From NCBI GenBank assembly GCA_001724995.1, contig MEFD01000018.1, forward strand, positions 1-64,000: a DNA stretch of 64,000 bases. Direction: 5' to 3'. The stretch is from Rubrivivax sp. SCN 71-131. Lineage in GTDB: Bacteria > Pseudomonadota > Gammaproteobacteria > Burkholderiales > Burkholderiaceae_C. Under the pieces are notes generated by a model. It was given only the letters and a program-made list of their open reading frames with translations, did not search any database and was not told where the DNA came from. The position numbers and the translations under genes are program-made. Every line of letters starts with the position of its first letter. The stretch's first letter is position 1. Shown one piece after another: positions 55,096 through 63,630 of this stretch.

Positions 55096-55139
55096 CACTA
55101 CCCGGATGGGCTATCACCCCTTACCCGTCGCGGGAATAG
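55096..55139 (+). promoter_or_regulatory. Shared dsr-region element, copy A (tusA operon leader)
   Basis: 55096-55128 reads CACTACCCG, then ATGGG, TATCA and finally ACCCGT. It matches the reverse complement of 62141-62173 at 28 of 33 positions with no gaps. Similarity continues through an ACCCG-N3-CGGG inverted repeat to 55139 (about 35 of 44). The 33-bp core ends 75 nt before the tusA start, in a 296-bp spacer (54908-55203) that otherwise holds nothing recognisable. It is best read as a promoter/operator unit. The regulator is unknown. Confidence 0.75.
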
Positions 55140-55203
55140 ACGCCGTCCGGGCCGCGGGGGGTAATGAAGCTTGTTGCAGGCGCTTGGACGCCAGGAGATG
55201 TGC

Positions 55204-55431
55204 ATGGACTTCGACAAGGAATTCGACGCCTCGGGCCTGGCCTGCCCCTTGCCCATCGTGAAGACGAAGAAGTCGCTGGCCGACATGGCCCCGGGGCAGG
55301 TGCTGCGCGTGCTGGCCACCGACCCGGGCTCGGTGTGCGACATGGCGGCCTTCGCCGAGCAGACCGGCCACGCGCTGCTGTCCTCGGGCGAGGAAGGCGG
55401 CAAGTACGTCTTCTTCCTGAAGAAGGCCTGA
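55204..55431 (+). CDS. tusA: TusA-family sulfur carrier protein
   Basis: A 75-aa sulfur carrier. The active Cys lies in the signature ASGLACPLPIVKTKKSLADM, followed by GQVLRVLATDPGSVCDM and the C-terminal GGKYVFFLKK. The ATG at 55204 follows AGGAG by about 8 nt; the in-frame ATG at 55198 would overlap the ribosome-binding region. TusA receives persulfide and, in sulfur oxidisers, passes it toward DsrE-type proteins and the Dsr system. Here dsrE2 follows 6 nt later and dsrAB lie 7 kb away under the same putative control element. Confidence 0.95.
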   Translation: MDFDKEFDASGLACPLPIVKTKKSLADMAPGQVLRVLATDPGSVCDMAAFAEQTGHALLSSGEEGGKYVFFLKKA

Positions 55432-55437
55432 CCCGCC

Positions 55438-55908
55438 ATGGCTGCCAAGAAGATGGCGATCATCGCCACCAAGGGCGCGCTGGACATGGCCTACCCGCCG
55501 CTCATCCTGGCCTCCACCGCCGCGGCGCTGGGCTGGGAGGTGCAGGTGTTCTTCACCTTCTACGGGCTGCAGCTTCTGCGCAAGGACTTGAGCGGCATCG
55601 CCATCAGCCCGCTGGCCAATCCGGCGATGCCGATGCCGATGCCGATGCCGGTGGTGGTGTCGGTGCTGCCGGGCATGCAGGCGATGGCGACCTCGATGAT
55701 GAAGGCCAAGATGAAGAAGAAGGGCGTGGCCTCGCTCGAGGAACTGCGTGACCTGTGCCAGGAGGCCGACGTCAAGTTCATCGCCTGCCAGATGACGGTG
55801 GACCTGTTCGAGTTCCAGAAGAGCGACTTCATCGACGGCATCGAATACGGCGGGGCCGCGACCTTCCTGAAGTTCGCCGGCGAGACCGACGTCTGCCTGT
55901 TCATCTAG
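55438..55908 (+). CDS. dsrE2: DsrE2-family sulfurtransferase-like protein
   Basis: A 156-aa DsrE/F-like protein with KKMAIIATKGALDMAYPPLILASTAAALG, WEVQVFFTFYGLQLLRKDL and ADVKFIACQMTVDLFEF (conserved Cys). A Met/Pro-alternating stretch (PAMPMPMPMP) precedes VVVSVLPGMQAMATSMMK, a feature of the membrane-associated DsrE2 subgroup. Characterised relatives handle persulfide together with TusA and rhodanese in sulfur oxidisers. The DNA under the Met/Pro run is an (atgccg)4 repeat at 55627-55650. Confidence 0.92.
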   Translation: MAAKKMAIIATKGALDMAYPPLILASTAAALGWEVQVFFTFYGLQLLRKDLSGIAISPLANPAMPMPMPMPVVVSVLPGMQAMATSMMKAKMKKKGVASLEELRDLCQEADVKFIACQMTVDLFEFQKSDFIDGIEYGGAATFLKFAGETDVCLFI

Positions 55909-55968
55909 GCGTGCGCCGCGCGCGGGCGCGCTGGCGGTGAGGCGCGGGCATCGGCAGGAGGAGACGGC

Positions 55969-57090
55969 ATGAGTGCAGGGGCGATGGATCCGGCGACCCT
56001 GGTCGTCGGCGGCGGGTTTGCGATCGCATTCGTCTTCGGCTTCGTGGCCTCGAGGTCGAACTTCTGCACCATGGGCGCGCTGTCCGACATCGTCAACATG
56101 GGCCACTGGAGCCGCATGCGCATGTGGCTGCTGGCCATCGCGGTGGCGGTGGCCGGCACGACGGCGCTGCGCTGGGGCGCGCAGGTCGACCTGGCCAAGG
56201 CGGTGCCGATGCGGCCCTCGCTGTCGTGGCTGTCGCTGCTCGTCGGCGGCTTCCTCTTCGGCGTGGGCATGACGCTGGCCGGCGGCTGTGCCAACAAGAA
56301 CCTGCTGCGCCTGGGCGGCGGCAGCGTGCGCTCGCTGGTGGTGCTGGTCTTCATGGGCATCGCCGCGTACATGACGCTCAAGGGCCTGTTCGCGCAGTGG
56401 CGCGCGTCGTGGCTGGACCCGGTGCGGGTGGACCTGGGGGCCCTGGGATGGAGCGACCAGAGCCTTGCCACGGCCGCCGCGCGCGGCCTCGGGCTGGAGC
56501 CGCGGTTGGCGCTGCTGGCCGTGGCCGCGGTGCTGGTGCTGGCGCTGCTGGCCTTCGTCTTTAAGGACGCGCGCTTTCGCGCCAACCGCGTGCAGGTGCT
56601 GGCCGGCGTGGCGCTGGGCGCCACCATCGTCGCCGGCTGGTACCTGACCGGACACCTCGGTTTCGGCGAAAGCCCGGAGACGCTCGAGGAGGTCTATTTC
56701 GCCACCAACACGCGCACGCTCGAGTCGCTGAGCCTGGTGGCGCCGGTGGCCTATTCGCTGGAGCTGCTGATGCTGTGGACCGACAAGTCGCTGCGCATGA
56801 GCTTCGGCATCGCCTCGGTGGTGGGCATGGTCGCCGGCGCGCTGACCGACGCGCTGAAGGCCGGCAAGTTTCGCTGGGAAGGGTTTGCCTCCATGGCCGA
56901 CCTGCGCAACCAGCTCGTGGGTGGGGTTCTGATGGGCTTCGGCGGCGTCACGGCGCTGGGCTGCACGGTGGGGCAGGGCCTGTCGGGGCTGTCGACGCTG
57001 GCTCTGGGTTCGTTCATCGCGGTGGGGGCCATCGTCGCCGGCTCCATCGCCACACTGAGGGTGATGCTATGGAACGCCGAACGCGCCTGA
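55969..57090 (+). CDS. YeeE/YedE family sulfur-compound transporter
   Basis: A 373-aa membrane protein of the sulfur-transport family (PF04143) with about nine or ten helices in two halves. The conserved Cys motifs are SRSNFCTMGALSDIV, GMTLAGGCANKNLLR and TALGCTVGQGLSG, which line the permeation path in the thiosulfate transporter YeeE. An AGGAGGAG ribosome-binding site precedes the ATG. In this operon it probably imports thiosulfate or another sulfane-sulfur compound destined for TusA/DsrE2. The next gene starts 22 nt before its end. Confidence 0.92.
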   Translation: MSAGAMDPATLVVGGGFAIAFVFGFVASRSNFCTMGALSDIVNMGHWSRMRMWLLAIAVAVAGTTALRWGAQVDLAKAVPMRPSLSWLSLLVGGFLFGVGMTLAGGCANKNLLRLGGGSVRSLVVLVFMGIAAYMTLKGLFAQWRASWLDPVRVDLGALGWSDQSLATAAARGLGLEPRLALLAVAAVLVLALLAFVFKDARFRANRVQVLAGVALGATIVAGWYLTGHLGFGESPETLEEVYFATNTRTLESLSLVAPVAYSLELLMLWTDKSLRMSFGIASVVGMVAGALTDALKAGKFRWEGFASMADLRNQLVGGVLMGFGGVTALGCTVGQGLSGLSTLALGSFIAVGAIVAGSIATLRVMLWNAERA

Positions 57091-57692
57091 TTCCCCTGGG
57101 TCGCCGGCAGCGGCCGGCGGTGCCCGCTCTTGCCGCCTTGGCCGCGCTGGCCGTGCTCTCCGGCTGCGCCAGTGCGCCGCCGCCGGACAAGGCGTGGCAG
57201 GGCCAGGCGCGCCAGGTCGCCACCGCCGTGCCGCCCAAGCTGCTGGCGGTGCTGCAGGCCGAGATCGCGCGTGGCGGCCCGGCCGGCGCGGTCGAGGTCT
57301 GCCGCGACAAGGCGCCGGCGATGGCGCGCGCGGCGTCGGCCGAGAGCGGCTGGACGATCCGGCGCGTGAGCCTGCGCAACCGCAATCCGAAGGCCGTTCC
57401 CGACGACTGGGAGCGCGGCGTGCTGGAGGACTTCGACCGCCGCGCGGCCGCCGGCGAGCCGGCGGCAACGCTCGAGCGCGCCGAGATCGTCAGCGAGGGC
57501 GGCCGCAGCGTGCAGCGCTACATGCGCGCGCTGCCGACGCAGGAGTTCTGCACGCAATGCCACGGCACGCCGGATCGCATCAGCCCGGCGGTGGCGGCCA
57601 AGCTGGCGCAGACCTACCCGCAGGATCGCGCCACCGGCTACCAGGTGGGCCAGATCCGTGGCGCCATGACGCTGCAGCGGCCCGCTCCCTGA
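57069..57692 (+). CDS. DUF3365 (Tll0287-like) haem-binding lipoprotein
   Basis: A 207-aa exported protein. The lipobox LAVLSGC ends the signal sequence (about residue 33), then comes a DUF3365/Tll0287-like domain with VEVCRDKAPAMARAASAESGW, RRVSLRNRNPKAVPDDWE and a c-type haem motif CTQCH in LPTQEFCTQCHGTPDRISP. It ends TGYQVGQIRGAMTLQRP. Such domains sense redox or small molecules or carry electrons in the periplasm. Its start overlaps yedE, so it is part of the tusA operon. It may be an electron-transfer or sensing partner for sulfur oxidation. Confidence 0.85.
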   Translation: MERRTRLIPLGRRQRPAVPALAALAALAVLSGCASAPPPDKAWQGQARQVATAVPPKLLAVLQAEIARGGPAGAVEVCRDKAPAMARAASAESGWTIRRVSLRNRNPKAVPDDWERGVLEDFDRRAAAGEPAATLERAEIVSEGGRSVQRYMRALPTQEFCTQCHGTPDRISPAVAAKLAQTYPQDRATGYQVGQIRGAMTLQRPAP

Positions 57693-57744
57693 AGCGCGGG
57701 CCACGGGCCTGCGCCGCCCGGGGGCCGGTTGCGGACCCCGCGGC

Positions 57745-58116
57745 TCAGAGATAGGACTTGCCGAGCCGGCGCTGCCCCGGCACGGCCTTCTGGATGACGA
57801 CGCCACGCACGGCGGCGAGGTCGGTCAGCGGCAGGTCCGGGGCGTCGCCGCGGGCGTCGTTGAGGGCGTGCAGCACCCAGGCCTCGCCATGCCGCAGCAA
57901 CTGGCGCAGCAGCCAGCCCTCGCCGTGGCGGGCGAGCACGAAGCGGCCATCGCCGACGGCGCCGTCGGGCTCGATGATGACGATCTCGCCGTGCCTGAAC
58001 TCGGGGGCCATGTCGTCGCCGAGCACGCGCAGCGCGAAGGACTCGCCGCCGCTGCAGCCGGCGCCGTCGTCGGCCGATGCGGAGGCGATGGGGCGGATGG
58101 GCCGGATGGGAATCAT
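57745..58116 (-). CDS. S24/LexA-like domain protein, catalytic Ser replaced
   Basis: A 123-aa protein consisting only of an S24 peptidase-like beta domain with no helix-turn-helix. The family motif GDSM-P appears as GDDMAPEFRHGEIVIIEPDG, so the nucleophilic Ser is Asp. The segment FVLARHGEGWLLRQLL occupies the place where the general-base Lys normally lies and shows no obvious Lys. It therefore looks non-proteolytic, perhaps a binding or regulatory domain. It is the last gene of the leftward operon and overlaps the preceding flavoprotein gene by 4 nt. Confidence 0.7.
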   Translation of the reverse strand: MIPIRPIRPIASASADDGAGCSGGESFALRVLGDDMAPEFRHGEIVIIEPDGAVGDGRFVLARHGEGWLLRQLLRHGEAWVLHALNDARGDAPDLPLTDLAAVRGVVIQKAVPGQRRLGKSYL

Positions 58117-59564
58117 GGCGTGATCTGCGTGTGGCGCTGCGCCGCGGGCACCCCGGCGGCGGCGAGTGCCTGCACCAGCGTGTCGACGAAGGCCCGCGGG
58201 CCGGCGATGTAGTAGGCGCAGTCGATGTCGAAGAGGTCGGCGCGCATCGCCGCGGCCATCTGCGCGGCGCCGATGGCGGCGTCGTCGTGGCTGGAGAGCG
58301 TGCATTCGAAGCTGTCCAATGCCTGCGACCAGGCGCGGCACTGGTTGGCCTGGAAGTGGCCATCGGCTCGCGTGGCCAGCCAGAACAGCGAGATCGAGGT
58401 CGAGTCGTCCAGCGACAGGGCATGCTCGATCAGGCTCTTCACAGGGGCGAAGGCGGTGTCGCAGGCGGCGAAGACGAGCGGGCGTGCGTCCTCCTCGGCG
58501 AGCGTGAAGCGCCCGCTCGGGCCCCACAGCGTGATGCTGTCGCCCACCGCGATCTCTCCGGCGAAGAGCCGCGCCGCCACCGCGTCGCCGGCGTCGCGCG
58601 GGATGTAGAAGTGCAGGTTGCGGTCGTCGCAGGGGCAGCTGGCGATGGGGTGCAGCGCCTGCGCCTCCTCGACCTCGCCCTTGTCCTGGCCGCGCGGCGG
58701 CAGGGCCAGGGTCAGCGACTGTCCGGCGAGGAAGCGCAGGCGGCGGCTGGGCGGCGTCTGCAGGTGCAGCAGCAGCGTGTCGGGGGCCAGCGGGCGCAGC
58801 GCGCGCACCTGGGCCACCAGCTGCTGCGGCGGGATGTCATCGGGGCCGCCGGCCTCCAGCGCCTCCAGCGTCAGTTCGGCGCTGGCCGCGGTGTGCGCGC
58901 AGGCCAGTACGTAGCCCTGGCCCTTCTCGGCCTCGGACAGTGCGTAGTCGGTGTGCTGCGTGCGTGCCACCTCGCCGGCGGTGACGCGCAGCTTGCACAT
59001 GCCGCAACTGCCGTCGCCGCAGCCGTAGTTGAGCTGCAGGCCGGCGCGCATGCCGGCCTGCAGCAGCGTGTCGTGACCCTCGACCAGGAAGCGGTGGCCG
59101 CTCGGGCGCAGCGTGACCTGCGCCGACACCACCTCGAGCATGTCGTCCATCGCGTCCAGGGCATCGACGGCTTCGGTGGCCAGGACCCGTGCCAGCCCTT
59201 CGCCCAGCCGGTGCAGCAGGGCGCGCAAGCGGGCGTCGGCGCCGCCGGCCTCGTCGTCCAGGCGGCGCAGTTCGTCGCGCAGTGCGATCACCAGCGCGTG
59301 GTAGCGCTGCAGGTGGCGCTGCGCGTCGGCCAGGTCCTGGCTCTGGCGGAAAAGGCGCCGCGCCAGCACCTCGCGGCCGGGCAGGGCCTGCTCGCGCAGG
59401 CGGTCATCTTCCGGCCGTGCCTGCGGATACAGGCGCAGCAGCGCGTCGGTGCGGATCAGGCCGTCGCTGAGCGCGAGCTCGCCCGCGCGCACGCGCTGCT
59501 GCAGCACGCCGCGCGGCACGCCCAGCAGCTGCGCGGCGCGCCCGAGGCTGATCCACTGCGCCAT
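58113..59564 (-). CDS. HTH-2Fe-2S-flavoreductase fusion protein
   Basis: A 483-aa three-part protein. Residues 1-50 resemble a MerR-like helix-turn-helix (WISLGRAAQLLGVPRGVLQQRV). About 60-145 is helical. About 150-235 is a plant-type ferredoxin with C182, C187 and C190 in YGCGDGSCGMC and C222 in VLACAHT. About 245-483 is an FAD/NAD(P)H reductase (HPIASCPCDDRNLHFYI; PLVFAACDTAFAPVKSLIEHAL). The reductase half should pass electrons from NAD(P)H to the iron-sulfur centre, probably for the TauD-like neighbour or another partner. The DNA-binding-like N-terminus is unusual and may instead be a protein-interaction domain. It starts 9 nt after the TauD gene. Confidence 0.82.
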   Translation of the reverse strand: MAQWISLGRAAQLLGVPRGVLQQRVRAGELALSDGLIRTDALLRLYPQARPEDDRLREQALPGREVLARRLFRQSQDLADAQRHLQRYHALVIALRDELRRLDDEAGGADARLRALLHRLGEGLARVLATEAVDALDAMDDMLEVVSAQVTLRPSGHRFLVEGHDTLLQAGMRAGLQLNYGCGDGSCGMCKLRVTAGEVARTQHTDYALSEAEKGQGYVLACAHTAASAELTLEALEAGGPDDIPPQQLVAQVRALRPLAPDTLLLHLQTPPSRRLRFLAGQSLTLALPPRGQDKGEVEEAQALHPIASCPCDDRNLHFYIPRDAGDAVAARLFAGEIAVGDSITLWGPSGRFTLAEEDARPLVFAACDTAFAPVKSLIEHALSLDDSTSISLFWLATRADGHFQANQCRAWSQALDSFECTLSSHDDAAIGAAQMAAAMRADLFDIDCAYYIAGPRAFVDTLVQALAAAGVPAAQRHTQITP

Positions 59565-59573
59565 GCCGCACCT

Positions 59574-60500
59574 TCAGTCCGGCGCCACCCGGTCGAGGAA
59601 GCGGGCGCGATACAGCAGGCGTGGCCGCGCCGGGTCGTCGACGAACGGGCTGCGGTCGTGCAGCACGTTGTGCCCGACCAGGCCCATGCCGGCCTCCAGC
59701 CGCACCTGCAGCAGGCCCGGCAGGCCGTGCTCGAGCAGCGCCGCCAGCCGCGCGGCGGCGCGCTGCACCTCGGCGTCGGGGTGCCACTCGATGCTGCGCG
59801 TGCGCGCGGTGTAGCGCAGGTGCAGCGCCCCCCGCCCGACGCTGAAGACCGGCCCGGACTGCGCCGGTCGCGCGATGCCCTCGTCGCCCGTGCGCGCGGG
59901 AATCGTCATCGCGTCGGGCCGCATCAGCGCGCGCATCAGCGTCGGCGATTCGTCGCGCAGCGCGATGTAGAGCAGTTCGGGGTCCAGCAGCCGATTGATG
60001 CCGCCGCGTGCCGCCGGGCGCACGACGTGCAGGACCATGCCCTGGATGCGCCGCGCCGGCGGGTTGTAGTAGCCGTCGGTGTGCCAGCGCAGGCCCTGGC
60101 ATGTGTAGGGGATGAAGCTGCCCCCGCCTGCGGCGCCGTGCGTGTGGGCACTGACCTCGATGCGGCTGATGCCGTCCTCCCCGGCCAGCCCGTTGGCGTC
60201 CAGCCGCCGCAGTCCGAGCGCGGCACCCAGCGCCAGCGGCAGCGCCGGATCCTCGGCGCGGAGCGGCGAGCGGTAGATCGCCACGTTGGCGCGGGCGATG
60301 GCCCCGAGCAGGGCGCGGCGCTCGGCGGGCGTGGGCGCGCGCGGGTCGGCGACGTCGACGGTGATCGCCGCCGCATCGGCGGGCCGCTGCTGCAGCTTGC
60401 CGTCGCGCCAGCGCGCGTAGGCGGCGTCGTCGGCGAGGTCAAAGGGTGTGCCCGCGCGTCGCCCTGCCGCCGCGGCGTCGAGATGCAGCCGCGCGTTCAT
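59574..60500 (-). CDS. TauD/TfdA-like Fe(II) dioxygenase
   Basis: A 308-aa double-stranded beta-helix oxygenase. Iron ligands are H140 and D142 in GLRWHTDGYYNPP and the distal H282 in GHNVLHDRSPF; an Arg in RLLYRARF could bind 2-oxoglutarate. Its family cleaves sulfonates, hydroxylates side chains or modifies other substrates. Within an operon beside dsrAB and a ferredoxin reductase it could release sulfite from an organosulfonate or modify an RNA or protein factor; neither is shown. It is separated by 6 nt from the upstream hypothetical gene. Confidence 0.85.
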   Translation of the reverse strand: MNARLHLDAAAAGRRAGTPFDLADDAAYARWRDGKLQQRPADAAAITVDVADPRAPTPAERRALLGAIARANVAIYRSPLRAEDPALPLALGAALGLRRLDANGLAGEDGISRIEVSAHTHGAAGGGSFIPYTCQGLRWHTDGYYNPPARRIQGMVLHVVRPAARGGINRLLDPELLYIALRDESPTLMRALMRPDAMTIPARTGDEGIARPAQSGPVFSVGRGALHLRYTARTRSIEWHPDAEVQRAAARLAALLEHGLPGLLQVRLEAGMGLVGHNVLHDRSPFVDDPARPRLLYRARFLDRVAPD

Positions 60501-60506
60501 CGCGCC

Positions 60507-61139
60507 TCAATCCCCGCTCGTTGCCCCGCGCCGCGGGCGCTGCGGGCCTGCCGGGTCGAGCAGGCTGCGCATCGAGCGCTGCACGATGGCCAGCGCCTCG
60601 GGCGCCTGCACGGCCATGATCTGGTCCAGCACCCAGAGCCGGTCCTTCTCGGGCAGCGTGGGCTCGAGGCGCGCGCCCAGGTAGCGCACGAAGCCGAAGT
60701 CGGGATGGAACAGGCCTTGCGCCTGCGCCGGCGGCGAGGGGTCGGCGCCGAACTCGGCGTAGTGGCCGACCACCTCGTTCACGAGATCGATGAAGGGCCG
60801 GGTCTGCGCGGGCGTCCCGGCGGCTGGCGCGCCCAGCAGGCTGTCCTCGTTGTCCTGCAGCGTGCGCGCGACGTGGCCGACCAGCGCCACGGTGAAGGCG
60901 TGGCGTTCGTCGGCACCCAGGCGCTGGTAGGCGATGCGGTCGGTGACGGCGATCAGGAACACCAGCAGCTCGCGCAGGAAGGCGAAGTAGGGCGCACCGG
61001 CGTCGATGTCGAAGTCGGCGCCGCGCATGCGCTCGAGCACCTGGCGCGCGGCGCGCCAGAGGATGAAGGCCATCGCGCTGGCCTGCTCGGCCGGGCTGCG
61101 CGGCGCATCGCCCTTGAACCACTGGTTCTTGACGCGCAT
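60507..61139 (-). CDS. Conserved-looking hypothetical protein of the dsr-linked operon
   Basis: A 210-aa, probably soluble, largely helical protein I do not recognise. Notable segments are MRVKNQWFKGDAPRSPAEQASAMAFI, YFAFLRELLVFLIAVTDRIAYQRL, FTVALVGHVARTLQDNED, FIDLVNEVVGHYAEFG and FHPDFGFVRYLGARLEP. It contains no Cys, so it is not a sulfur carrier. It lies between the Cas6-like gene (65-nt gap) and the TauD gene (6-nt gap) in the leftward operon. The start at ATG 61139 has no clear ribosome-binding site. Confidence 0.65.
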   Translation of the reverse strand: MRVKNQWFKGDAPRSPAEQASAMAFILWRAARQVLERMRGADFDIDAGAPYFAFLRELLVFLIAVTDRIAYQRLGADERHAFTVALVGHVARTLQDNEDSLLGAPAAGTPAQTRPFIDLVNEVVGHYAEFGADPSPPAQAQGLFHPDFGFVRYLGARLEPTLPEKDRLWVLDQIMAVQAPEALAIVQRSMRSLLDPAGPQRPRRGATSGD

Positions 61140-61204
61140 CGCGGGCAGGAGGGGCGGCGTGGTCACGGCGGGGTGCGGGAAGATCGGTGGGCGGTCGGGG
61201 CGGC

Positions 61205-61843
61205 TCAGGCGGGCGCGCCCACCGCGGCGGCCGAGCGGTGGGGCACGAAGAGCCCGCAGCCCAGGCGGCGGTGCGGGCCCAGGCCGAGGTCCTGCAGGCG
61301 CAGCGATTGGGCAGCCGAGAGCCCGTCGAGCATCAGGCTGTGGCCCTGCAGTCGTCCCGACTCCAGCCGCTGCGGCCGGCCGCAGATCGGGCGGCACGGC
61401 AGGCCCAGGCGGTCCAGCTCGTGCTCGACCTGTTGCATGAAGGCGGCCTCGTCGACGCCGGCCTCGAGCGCCACCAGGTGGGCGTAGAGCGTGCCCCAGG
61501 GCCGCAGCTCGCGCGCGTGCAGAGCACCCACGCAGAGCGCATGGCCGCCGATGTCCAGCGTCTGCCCGGTGAGTGCGGCAGCGTCGGCGGCGCGCGCGCG
61601 CGGCAGGCGCAGCACGAGGCGCGTGCGCTGCGCCAGCAGCGCCTGCGCGGCGCCGCCGGCGGGTGCATCGGCCACGTTCAGGCGGTGCACGCCGGCGCCC
61701 GGCGCACCGGCCAGCCAGGGCAGCGCGGCCTCGAGCGCGGCGGCCAGCAGCACGCGGTGCTCGTGCGGCAGTTGGCGGCCCCGCAGGACGAAGACGAGGT
61801 CGACCATCGATGGGGCGGCGCCGTCGTCGTGCTGCGCGTTCAT
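61205..61843 (-). CDS. Cas6-like protein (Cmx6/type I-MYXAN group), no CRISPR nearby
   Basis: A 212-aa protein resembling the Cas6/Cmx6 endoribonuclease family. Its features are MVDLVFVLRGRQLPHEH, LPWLAGAPGAGVHRLNV, RTRLVLRLPRARAADAAAL, an RRM-like beta pattern, and a C-terminal Gly-rich loop DLGLGPHRRLGCGLFVPHR (about 185-203) like the hallmark RNA-binding loop of Cas6. An N-terminal His pair (H27, H29) could hold a catalytic residue. An alternative start at residue 13 is possible. No CRISPR repeats, cas1, cas2 or effector genes are in the window; instead it sits in an operon beside dsrAB. The family call is from recalled sequence pattern, not a search. Confidence 0.65.
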   Translation of the reverse strand: MNAQHDDGAAPSMVDLVFVLRGRQLPHEHRVLLAAALEAALPWLAGAPGAGVHRLNVADAPAGGAAQALLAQRTRLVLRLPRARAADAAALTGQTLDIGGHALCVGALHARELRPWGTLYAHLVALEAGVDEAAFMQQVEHELDRLGLPCRPICGRPQRLESGRLQGHSLMLDGLSAAQSLRLQDLGLGPHRRLGCGLFVPHRSAAAVGAPA

Positions 61844-61868
61844 GGCCGTCTTCCCGGCGTTCGCGGCC

Positions 61869-62081
61869 TCAGCGCGGTTGCCGCCGTGCCCAGTCCAGCA
61901 GCGCCTGCCCCCAGGCCTCGGCGGTGAGGGGGTCGATGTCGAAGATGGTGAAGCGGCTGCCTTCGCGGATGCGCGTACGCAGCAGGCTCATGCCGCCGGC
62001 GGCGAAGTCGACCTGCTGCAGCTCGATCTCCTGCTTGCCCAGCGGTGAGCGCAATTGCGTCAAGGGGGTGAGTTGCGTCAT
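61869..62081 (-). CDS. Small hypothetical protein, first gene of dsr-linked operon
   Basis: A 70-aa protein from ATG 62081 (MTQLTPLTQLRSPLGKQEIEL). It continues with QQVDFAAGGMSLLRTRIREGSRFTIFDIDPLTAEAWGQALLDWA. It is soluble and beta-rich, with no Cys and no recognised family. It is 25 nt upstream of the Cas6-like gene and directly downstream of copy B of the shared element, so it should be the first translated product of the operon. A frame extension to 62105 adds eight residues. Confidence 0.65.
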   Translation of the reverse strand: MTQLTPLTQLRSPLGKQEIELQQVDFAAGGMSLLRTRIREGSRFTIFDIDPLTAEAWGQALLDWARRQPR

Positions 62082-62129
62082 GTCACGCCGTGTCCAGGCC
62101 GGCATTGAGCGTGAGCGCCCTGGCGCCGT

Positions 62130-62173
62130 CCATACCCGGTACGGGTGAGCGTTGATAACCCATTCGGGTAGTG
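62130..62173 (-). promoter_or_regulatory. Shared dsr-region element, copy B
   Basis: Read on the minus strand, 62173-62141 gives CACTACCCG, ATGGG, TATCA and ACCCGT with the same spacing as copy A upstream of tusA (28 of 33 identical). An adjoining ACCCG-N3-CGGGT inverted repeat lies at 62134-62146. The 33-bp core ends about 59 nt from the start of the 70-aa gene, facing the leftward operon. It lies in the 235-bp divergent spacer with dsrA, so a bound regulator could control both directions. Confidence 0.75.
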
Positions 62174-62198
62174 GCGTGCCACCCCTTCCGGTCTATCG

Positions 62199-62214
62199 TG
62201 ACTAGCCACCCGGG
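62199..62214 (-). promoter_or_regulatory. Partial third copy of the shared element
   Basis: On the minus strand CCCGGGTGGCTAGTCA resembles the 16-bp core of copies A and B (CCCGGATGGGCTATCA and CCCGAATGGGTTATCA) at about 12-13 of 16 positions. It contains the palindrome ACCCGGGT and lies about 100 bp before the dsrA start. It may be a second operator serving dsrA. Confidence 0.4.
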
Positions 62215-62316
62215 TGATGGCGTCGTCGTCGCCCCGCAGCCAGCATTCGAACCCTGACGACGCGGCCGGCACCCGACGCGGTGCGGCAGCCGCCCAGCCA
62301 CCAGGAGACTCACGGC

Positions 62317-63630
62317 ATGGCCAAGAAACCGTACGACACGCCGAATCTCGACCAGCTCGAGGCCGGCCCCTGGCCGAGCTTCGTCACCGGCCTCAAGCGC
62401 CTGGCACAGGACAAGGACTACGTCGTCGACCTGCTGGGCACGCTCGAGACCAGCTACCGCACCAAGAAGGGCTACTGGAAGGGCGGCACGGTGGGCGTGT
62501 TCGGCTACGGCGGCGGCGTCATCCCGCGCTTCACCGAACTGAAGCACGAGGACGGCACGCCGGTCTACCCCGATGCCGCCGAATTCCACACCCTGCGCGT
62601 GCAGCCGCCCCCGGGCATGCACTACACGACCGACGTGCTGCGCAAGATGTGCGACATCTGGGAGCGTCACGGCTCGGGGCTGATCGCCTTTCACGGCCAG
62701 AGCGGAGACATCATGTTCCAGGGCGCCAGGACCGACAAGGTGCAGGCCGCCTTCGACGAGATCAACGAGCTCGGCTTCGACCTCGGCGGTGCCGGCCCCG
62801 CGGTGCGCACCAGCATGAGCTGCGTCGGTGCCGCGCGCTGCGAGCAGAGCTGCTTCGACGAGGGGCGCGCGCATCGGCAGGTGATCAACACCTTCACCGA
62901 CGACATCCACCGCCCGGCGCTGCCCTACAAGTTCAAGTTCAAGTTCAGCGGCTGCGCCAACGACTGCATGAACTCCATCCAGCGCGCCGACATGGCCGTC
63001 ATCGGCACCTGGCGCGACAACATGCGCAGCGACGAGGCGCTGGCGCGCCGGTGGTTCGAGCGGCACGGCATGAACGAGCTGGTGAACGACGTCGTCACGC
63101 GCTGCCCGACCAAGGCCATCCTGCTGAAGGAAGTGAAGGATCTGCGCGGCGACGGCCACCTCACCACCGTGAAGGTCAGCGACACGCACGCCCTGGAGAT
63201 CGACAACAAGGACTGCGTGCGCTGCATGCACTGCATCAACGTGATGACGGGTGCGCTCGCGCACGGCACCGACACCGGCGCCACCATCCTCATCGGCGGC
63301 AAGCGCACGCTCAAGATCGGCGACCTGATGGGCACCGTGGTCGTGCCCTTCCTGCCGCTGAAGACCGACGCGGACTACGAGGCGCTGGTCGACCTCGGGC
63401 GCAGGGTGATCGACTTCTTCGCCGAGAACGCGCTCGAGCACGAGCGCACCGGCGAGATGATCGAGCGCATCGGCCTCGTCAACTTCCTCGAGGGCGTGGG
63501 CCTCGAAGTCGACCCGCACATGGTGTCCAGCCCGCGCACCAACCCCTACGTGCGCACCGACGGCTGGGACGAGGAAGTCGCCAAGCTCGAGGCCAGGAAG
63601 CTGGCCGCCACGCAGGCCGGCACGGCCTGA
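62317..63630 (+). CDS. dsrA: Dissimilatory-type sulfite reductase alpha subunit (reverse type likely)
   Basis: A 437-aa siroheme/[4Fe-4S] enzyme subunit. Cofactor Cys motifs are MSCVGAARCEQSC and FSGCANDC, and an inserted ferredoxin domain has DCVRCMHCINVM with another Cys in TRCPTKAI. N-terminal features GGGVIPRF and LRVQPPPGMHYTTDVLRKMCD are DsrA-like. In sulfur oxidisers it works in reverse, converting persulfide sulfur to sulfite. The direction is inferred from the betaproteobacterial context and from tusA/dsrE2. AGGAG (62303-62307) precedes the ATG by 9 nt. dsrB follows after 20 nt. Confidence 0.94.
   Translation: MAKKPYDTPNLDQLEAGPWPSFVTGLKRLAQDKDYVVDLLGTLETSYRTKKGYWKGGTVGVFGYGGGVIPRFTELKHEDGTPVYPDAAEFHTLRVQPPPGMHYTTDVLRKMCDIWERHGSGLIAFHGQSGDIMFQGARTDKVQAAFDEINELGFDLGGAGPAVRTSMSCVGAARCEQSCFDEGRAHRQVINTFTDDIHRPALPYKFKFKFSGCANDCMNSIQRADMAVIGTWRDNMRSDEALARRWFERHGMNELVNDVVTRCPTKAILLKEVKDLRGDGHLTTVKVSDTHALEIDNKDCVRCMHCINVMTGALAHGTDTGATILIGGKRTLKIGDLMGTVVVPFLPLKTDADYEALVDLGRRVIDFFAENALEHERTGEMIERIGLVNFLEGVGLEVDPHMVSSPRTNPYVRTDGWDEEVAKLEARKLAATQAGTA

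Follow-up and report, generated by a model that had tools for sequence, protein, structure and literature searches.

Operators of Escherichia coli NarL consist of inverted heptamers in a 7-2-7 spacing. The heptamer is given as TACYYMT (PMC4886647). For sulfur oxidation, the published site of the Acidithiobacillus activator TspR is TGTCCCAAATGGGACA (PMC6335251), and narQL transcripts are reported to fall in mutants of Hyphomicrobium denitrificans (PMC12423496). In the titles and opening lines of abstracts of the open-access literature, no NarL-type system was tied to dsr, tusA or soe, and no regulator of reverse Dsr in these bacteria was named. Grimm et al. reportedly studied dsr regulation in Allochromatium vinosum in 2010. 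The locus compared here comprises the first 64,000 nucleotides of contig MEFD01000018.1 of Rubrivivax sp. SCN 71-131 (assembly GCA_001724995.1); this whole stretch is referred to as the window. Two copies of a promoter element were located in it, one facing the tusA operon and the other an accessory operon that opens with a DUF6967 gene and includes a Cas6-family gene. Judged from genome comparison, this repeat is part of a putative conserved gene switch before sulfur-oxidation genes in many relatives, and a NarL-type two-component system is the likely regulator. Coordinates of all features are collected in Table 1.

Bases 55096-55128 (+) were compared without gaps with the reverse complement of 62141-62173 (-), and the agreement at 28 of 33 positions given in an earlier note on this DNA was reproduced. 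The likeness that the note saw beyond these 33 bp, with its ACCCG-N3-CGGG repeat, was also present and ran on to a 46-mer with 35 bases common to both copies; the 33-mer did not stand as the natural unit. Distances to the first start codons were 75 nt for tusA (55204) and 59 nt for the DUF6967 gene (62081), as claimed, and the tusA and Cas6-like operons were likewise convergent. The claim that such a pair would rarely arise by chance failed on the window alone. Ungapped inverted pairs with at least 28 of 33 identical positions occurred at five distinct places including this one (direct repeats uncounted), where 0.15 would be expected under independent bases, and the four others, just as good, all lay inside predicted open reading frames (ORFs). 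The element is regarded as non-random because it is conserved in relatives, and not from the window pair alone. When the 3.9-Mb assembly was searched with the 35 shared bases of the 46-mer, allowing up to 3 mismatches, no third match was found. Searched with 23 of the bases fixed and at most 3 mismatches, this genome gave two matches, both at promoters; the many scattered copies that would have spoken against the note's reading were absent at this stringency.

Conservation was followed in 81 genomes of the genus and in 399 family genomes from 141 genera, many of them fragmentary. The reversed pattern served as control, and the family sample was searched at a site spacing of 23 bp only. A looser 28-bp pattern, used first, matched 20 of the 81 genus genomes including this one (reversed pattern, 0); 18 of the 19 loci from other genomes faced tusA or the dsrE2 gene behind it, the exception being L019. 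Elsewhere this pattern matched only tusA copies because the two sites before DUF6967 are mostly spaced 24 bp apart in relatives; in this genome the spacing is 23 bp, as at tusA. Within the intergenic region between DUF6967 and dsrA, the element faced DUF6967 in 27 of 28 loci, this genome included, with weak versions at L086 and L124 and none at L118 (genome G063). The 23 fixed bases with up to 3 mismatches gave 36 sites in 31 of the 81 genus genomes at spacing 23 (reversed, 1) and 43 sites in 29 genomes at spacing 24 (reversed, 0); with both spacings united, 34 genus genomes were motif-positive. The family sample yielded 61 sites in 33 genomes from 17 genera (reversed, 3). Both copies were thus kept upstream of orthologous operons in relatives, and comparative evidence supports the suggestion of the earlier note that the accessory operon, the sulfur-trafficking genes and perhaps dsrAB may answer to one regulator.

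Loci were gathered partly by dsrA, Cas6-like or regulator queries and partly by the pattern alone. When pooled they held 130 distinct site sequences, identical sites being counted once and a few places counting twice (both strands or both spacings). A reference gene was faced within 337 bp by 129 of these, at a median distance of 80 bp from site to first reference match; the 130th ran into an apparent SoeA start where its stretch breaks off. The genes faced encoded TusA (55), DUF6967 (31), SoeA (29), TauE (5), CMD-Rieske (3), Sat (2), the kinase described below (2), SoxY (1) and SulP (1). TusA and DUF6967, with 86 sites, were the only references used from the start; SoeA (29) and the references for the other 14 were added after appearing behind sites. 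Inspection by eye showed degenerate versions of the element in the soeA promoter of this contig and, again before soeA, at regulator locus L284. CMD-Rieske genes with the same element upstream were noted at L086:17053-17697 (Pfam) and L190:3746-4372, the latter followed by a FadL-like gene (by eye).

The natural unit of about 46 bp comprises two sites and a -35 hexamer, after which a -10 follows. The sites are tandem inverted repeats, ACCC-N4-GGG then ACCC-N5-GGG, 23-24 bp apart. Their centres fall at -68 and -44.5 on a composite sequence with the -10 hexamer at -12 to -7 and an 18-bp spacer; with a 17-bp spacer both distances are one less. The second site abuts a weak sigma70-like -35 (TAGACG/TGGACG), with the -10 (GCTAAT/CTCAAT) 17-18 bp further on. 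In the alignment of tusA upstream regions, TACCCggATGGGcTAt was followed by a variable stretch and then by TC(A/C)CCCgT-GCGGGaATAGACg, after which 17-18 unconserved bp led to GCTAAT. This alignment was made without L019, and its 18-sequence column counts without L025 (a Cas6-like copy) and L006. The DUF6967 promoter of relatives mostly carried TGGACG as its -35, with CTCAAT as its -10. Such a two-site layout upstream of the -35 points to an activator-dependent promoter.

A third, weaker element faces dsrA. Its anchor, GGTCTATC, was kept on the dsrA side in 20 of 28 loci and was usually followed by a CTACCC-N5-GGG-like sequence and then, by eye, by a -35-like/-10-like pair 17 bp apart. In this genome the element reads CACCCCTTCCGGTCTATC (62180-62197), then CTAGCCACCCGGGTGATGG, on the + strand. 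A weight matrix scored the dsrA-side double site in L089 (20.3), L091 (10.9) and L100 (18.0), with reversed controls at or below 5; the weaker copy of this genome was not scored by it.

As binder we propose a NarL-type response regulator whose gene lies behind that of a GAF-type histidine kinase in the dsr cluster of this contig; the cluster also contains a sat-like gene (named by eye) and genes for a rhodanese and a LysR protein. The regulator matched PF00072 (receiver, 2.2e-27) and PF00196 (GerE/LuxR-type helix-turn-helix, 1e-20), its best PDB match was E. coli NarL (E=1.3e-44), and the phmmer alignment placed its recognition helix TVKLHVRHIL against TVKVHVKHML of NarL. Within the genus, 31 of the 34 motif-positive genomes yielded the regulator and none of the 47 motif-negative ones did; in the family sample the figures were 32 of 33 and 4 of 366. 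A site lay 1.0-2.1 kb upstream of the regulator in 20 of 75 regulator loci (reversed control, 0 of 75), 5 of the 80 loci having been dropped for too little upstream DNA. At most of these the kinase gene was divergent, and the sites faced soeA, sat, a CMD-Rieske gene or a 4Fe-4S gene. Regulator and element also occur together in the cultured relatives Ramlibacter lithotrophicus RBP-1 (L243) and Ideonella aquatica 4Y11 (L241). This position beside the kinase gene is a stronger hint than co-occurrence that the regulator may be the binder. The full TACYYMT left half-site was present in 15 of 43 family sites and 4 of 31 genus sites; outside this genus TACCCAT was the left half met most often (15 of 43), which was not so within it.

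The kinase contained GAF, HisKA_3 and HATPase_c as the only families found, with no recognised sensor domain, and no membrane segment was seen by eye. Cysteines occupied four positions of its GAF domain in 73, 78, 78 and 56 of 79 aligned kinases; 78 of 98 kinase matches were kept, those not covering about residues 60-390 being dropped. The GAF cysteines of the kinase include C97, C100 and C118. Fe-S clusters are one of several kinds of ligand that GAF domains can take up (PMC8199190). Our guess is that the kinase might sense a redox or sulfane-sulfur signal.

Several observations weigh against the NarL-type regulator as binder. Three motif-positive genomes (G021, G022 and G029) were without a detected regulator, the kinase of G029 lying at a contig end. 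No site stood beside the kinase gene in this genome. In the family sample the table of motif against regulator was identical to that of motif against dsrA, and co-occurrence cannot name the binder because motif, regulator and dsrA turn up together as a set. In a scan with a weight matrix built from 43 of the 61 family sites, the stretch covered contained no site at 59 of the 80 regulator loci, and the K-L-R recognition residues shared by all 21 motif-bearing loci were also found at 43 of these 59; site-free loci are largely uninformative, since their stretches rarely include target genes. The heptamer argument is weak, TACCC being fixed in the search pattern, and the copies of this genome (TACCCGG and TACCCGA) do not match TACYYMT. 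The spacing also differs, with CCC-N4-GGG and CCC-N5-GGG here and CCC-N6-GGG in the NarL operator.

Another transcription factor encoded elsewhere could bind the element while the two-component genes merely travel with the dsr island. The shared package would suit this explanation, as would the numerous regulators that have these recognition residues yet no site nearby; we nevertheless hold it to be rather unlikely: the site recurs beside the kinase gene with differing genes faced, and motif and regulator were both undetected (thresholds used) in G063, where dsrA and the Cas6-like gene are kept. Binding by the LysR-type regulator beside sat is improbable. Its gene belongs to the same cluster and is somewhat commoner where the motif occurs (18 of 34 genomes, against 8 of 47 without the motif; Fisher 0.0014), and a pair of sites so placed could equally serve a LysR protein. 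However, at E<=1e-80 it was not found in 16 of 34 motif-positive genomes and was present in 8 motif-free ones, a distribution that disfavours it as the common binder. LysR sites follow the rule T-N11-A, unlike the GC-rich ACCC...GGG repeats found here.

Lower still we place the view that the element serves repression and not activation, for example by a sulfane-sulfur repressor of the ArsR type like those of Hyphomicrobium. Site 2 does reach the -35, and the known sulfur-oxidation regulators SoxR and sHdrR are described as ArsR repressors (PMC12423496), but the sites lie upstream of a weak -35/-10, as activator sites do, and no ArsR gene was recognised by eye in the 40 kb inspected (no library scan of it was made). 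A sigma54-type activator acting from CCC-N4-GGG sites is very improbable, despite the resemblance of this core to the TspR site (PMC6335251), for the conserved blocks downstream resemble a -35/-10 pair spaced by 17-18 bp, with the sites running directly up to the -35, and inspection of the alignments, without a scan aimed at it, brought no conserved sigma54 -24/-12 block to notice. Chance similarity or a dispersed repeat is next to inconceivable. The four further inverted matches of the window would allow it; two promoter copies in this genome, relatives in 17 genera and reversed counts of 1, 0 and 3 speak against it, and it was rejected on conservation before orthologous operons.

We consider it probable that the element represents tandem operators at sigma70-type promoters, bound by the NarL-type regulator of the dsr cluster, which would switch on the regulon. 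Two dimers of the phosphorylated regulator would occupy the two tandem sites and recruit RNA polymerase at the weak -35/-10. Sulfur oxidation would then be switched on as one regulon comprising tusA, the DUF6967/Cas6-like operon, dsrA (weaker) and soeA (degenerate), in response to a sulfur or redox signal read through the conserved cysteines of the GAF kinase. We infer all three of the regulator as binder, its activating role and the signal through the kinase cysteines. A wider proposal is offered only tentatively, and we think it rather less likely to hold than to fail: a NarL-type system from respiration control may have become the master activator of cytoplasmic sulfur oxidation in at least 17 genera of one bacterial family, drawing in a Cas6-family protein and sensing sulfane sulfur or redox state through the cysteine cluster of a soluble GAF kinase. 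The route under such control would comprise TusA/DsrE2, rDsr, Soe and sulfite export, with Sat and SoxY in some genomes.

Table 1. Features of the two operons, their promoters and the candidate regulators. Positions refer to the window unless a contig is named.
Feature	Position	Strand	Basis or remark
Copy 1	55099-55142	+	facing tusA; pattern match and conservation before tusA/dsrE2 in relatives
Copy 1 site 1, TACCC-GGAT-GGGCTA	55099-55113	+	
Copy 1 site 2, ACCC-GTCGC-GGG	55123-55134	+	
Copy 1 -35-like, TAGACG	55137-55142	+	
tusA promoter -10-like, GGTAAT	55160-55165	+	17 bp after TAGACG; TAAT block conserved in tusA alignment
Copy 2	62127-62170	-	facing DUF6967/Cas6-like operon; pattern match and conservation in relatives
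Copy 2 site 1, TACCC-GAAT-GGGTTA	62170-62156	-	
Copy 2 site 2, ACCC-GTACC-GGG	62146-62135	-	
Copy 2 -35-like, TGGACG	62132-62127	-	
Copy 2 -10-like, CTCAAT	62104-62109	-	17 bp after TGGACG; same place in the 27 element-carrying regions, own included
Weaker dsrA-facing element	62180-62246	+	anchor conservation; hexamers by eye
dsrA-facing -35-like, TGGCGT	62218-62223	+	by eye
dsrA-facing -10-like, CAGCAT	62241-62246	+	by eye
tusA	55204-55431	+	PF01206, Pfam 2.6e-23
dsrE2-type gene	55438-55908	+	PF13686, Pfam 2.6e-54
Membrane gene of tusA operon	55969-57090	+	ORF
Remainder of accessory operon	57745-61133	-	ORFs and Pfam; start codons as predicted
S24-peptidase-like gene	57745-58110	-	PF00717, 8.6e-13
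Cas6-family gene	61205-61843	-	PF09559, Pfam 7.6e-53
DUF6967 gene, first of accessory operon	61869-62081	-	PF22295, Pfam 1.2e-29
dsrA	62317-63630	+	ORF
NarL-type response regulator	contig C18:76025-76693		same dsr cluster, behind histidine kinase
GAF-type histidine kinase	contig C18 ~76687-77904		406 aa, start codon assumed
LysR-type regulator	contig C18:78099-79070		beside sat

The tusA operon continues through the dsrE2-type gene to a membrane gene that we take to be YeeE/YedE-like. In the accessory operon, the stretch behind the Cas6-family gene encodes a protein without a Pfam match, a TauD-like protein, a ferredoxin/reductase and an S24-peptidase-like protein, the last of which closes the operon; Pfam reported no DNA-binding family for the scanned stretch with the S24-peptidase-like gene. 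Homologs of dsrA were found in 32 of the 81 genus genomes (E<=1e-40) and Cas6-like homologs in 33 (E<=1e-5), the Cas6-family gene being present in all 32 dsrA-bearing genomes plus one more. Cas1 gave no match in 19 of these 33 and a strong match in 10, among them this genome, where Cas1 lies on another contig. The aligned Cas6-like homologs shared the C-terminal segment G.G.hR..GCG.FVPH. Possibly this Cas6 serves a purpose unrelated to CRISPR. In relatives, many of the dsrA matches run across a single stop codon, mostly TGA, at which a shorter protein probably ends. At L118 of G063, dsrA (75% identity) and its Cas6-like neighbour were found with neither element nor regulator; this dsr cluster may be of other origin or contamination (7% listed).

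If the proposal is correct, it supplies a short, exact and testable operator and predicts both its regulator and the genes under its control. Shared control would also tie DUF6967, the Cas6-family protein, the TauD-like protein and CMD-Rieske, all poorly understood, to sulfur oxidation.

Compared with known systems, the proposed switch shares with SoxR and sHdrR of Hyphomicrobium denitrificans the control of sulfur-transfer and oxidation genes (PMC12423496); these are one-component ArsR repressors of another DNA-binding family, concerned with sHdr and not rDsr. With RsrS-RsrR and TspS-TspR of Acidithiobacillus caldus it shares two-component control of sulfur-oxidation genes (PMC6335251), whereas RsrS/RsrR are described as EnvZ/OmpR-like and TspS/TspR as sigma54-dependent, unlike the NarL-type proteins here, and their targets are tetH and sox in place of rDsr/TusA/Soe. 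The likeness to NarX-NarL and NarQ-NarP lies in the response regulator family and a similar recognition helix, and part of the half-sites fit the NarL heptamer. NarX and NarQ are membrane proteins with a periplasmic nitrate sensor; in the GAF-HisKA_3-HATPase kinase of this cluster neither feature was recognised, and conserved GAF cysteines are present instead. The genes faced here, in contrast to those of the Nar systems, are sulfur-oxidation genes.

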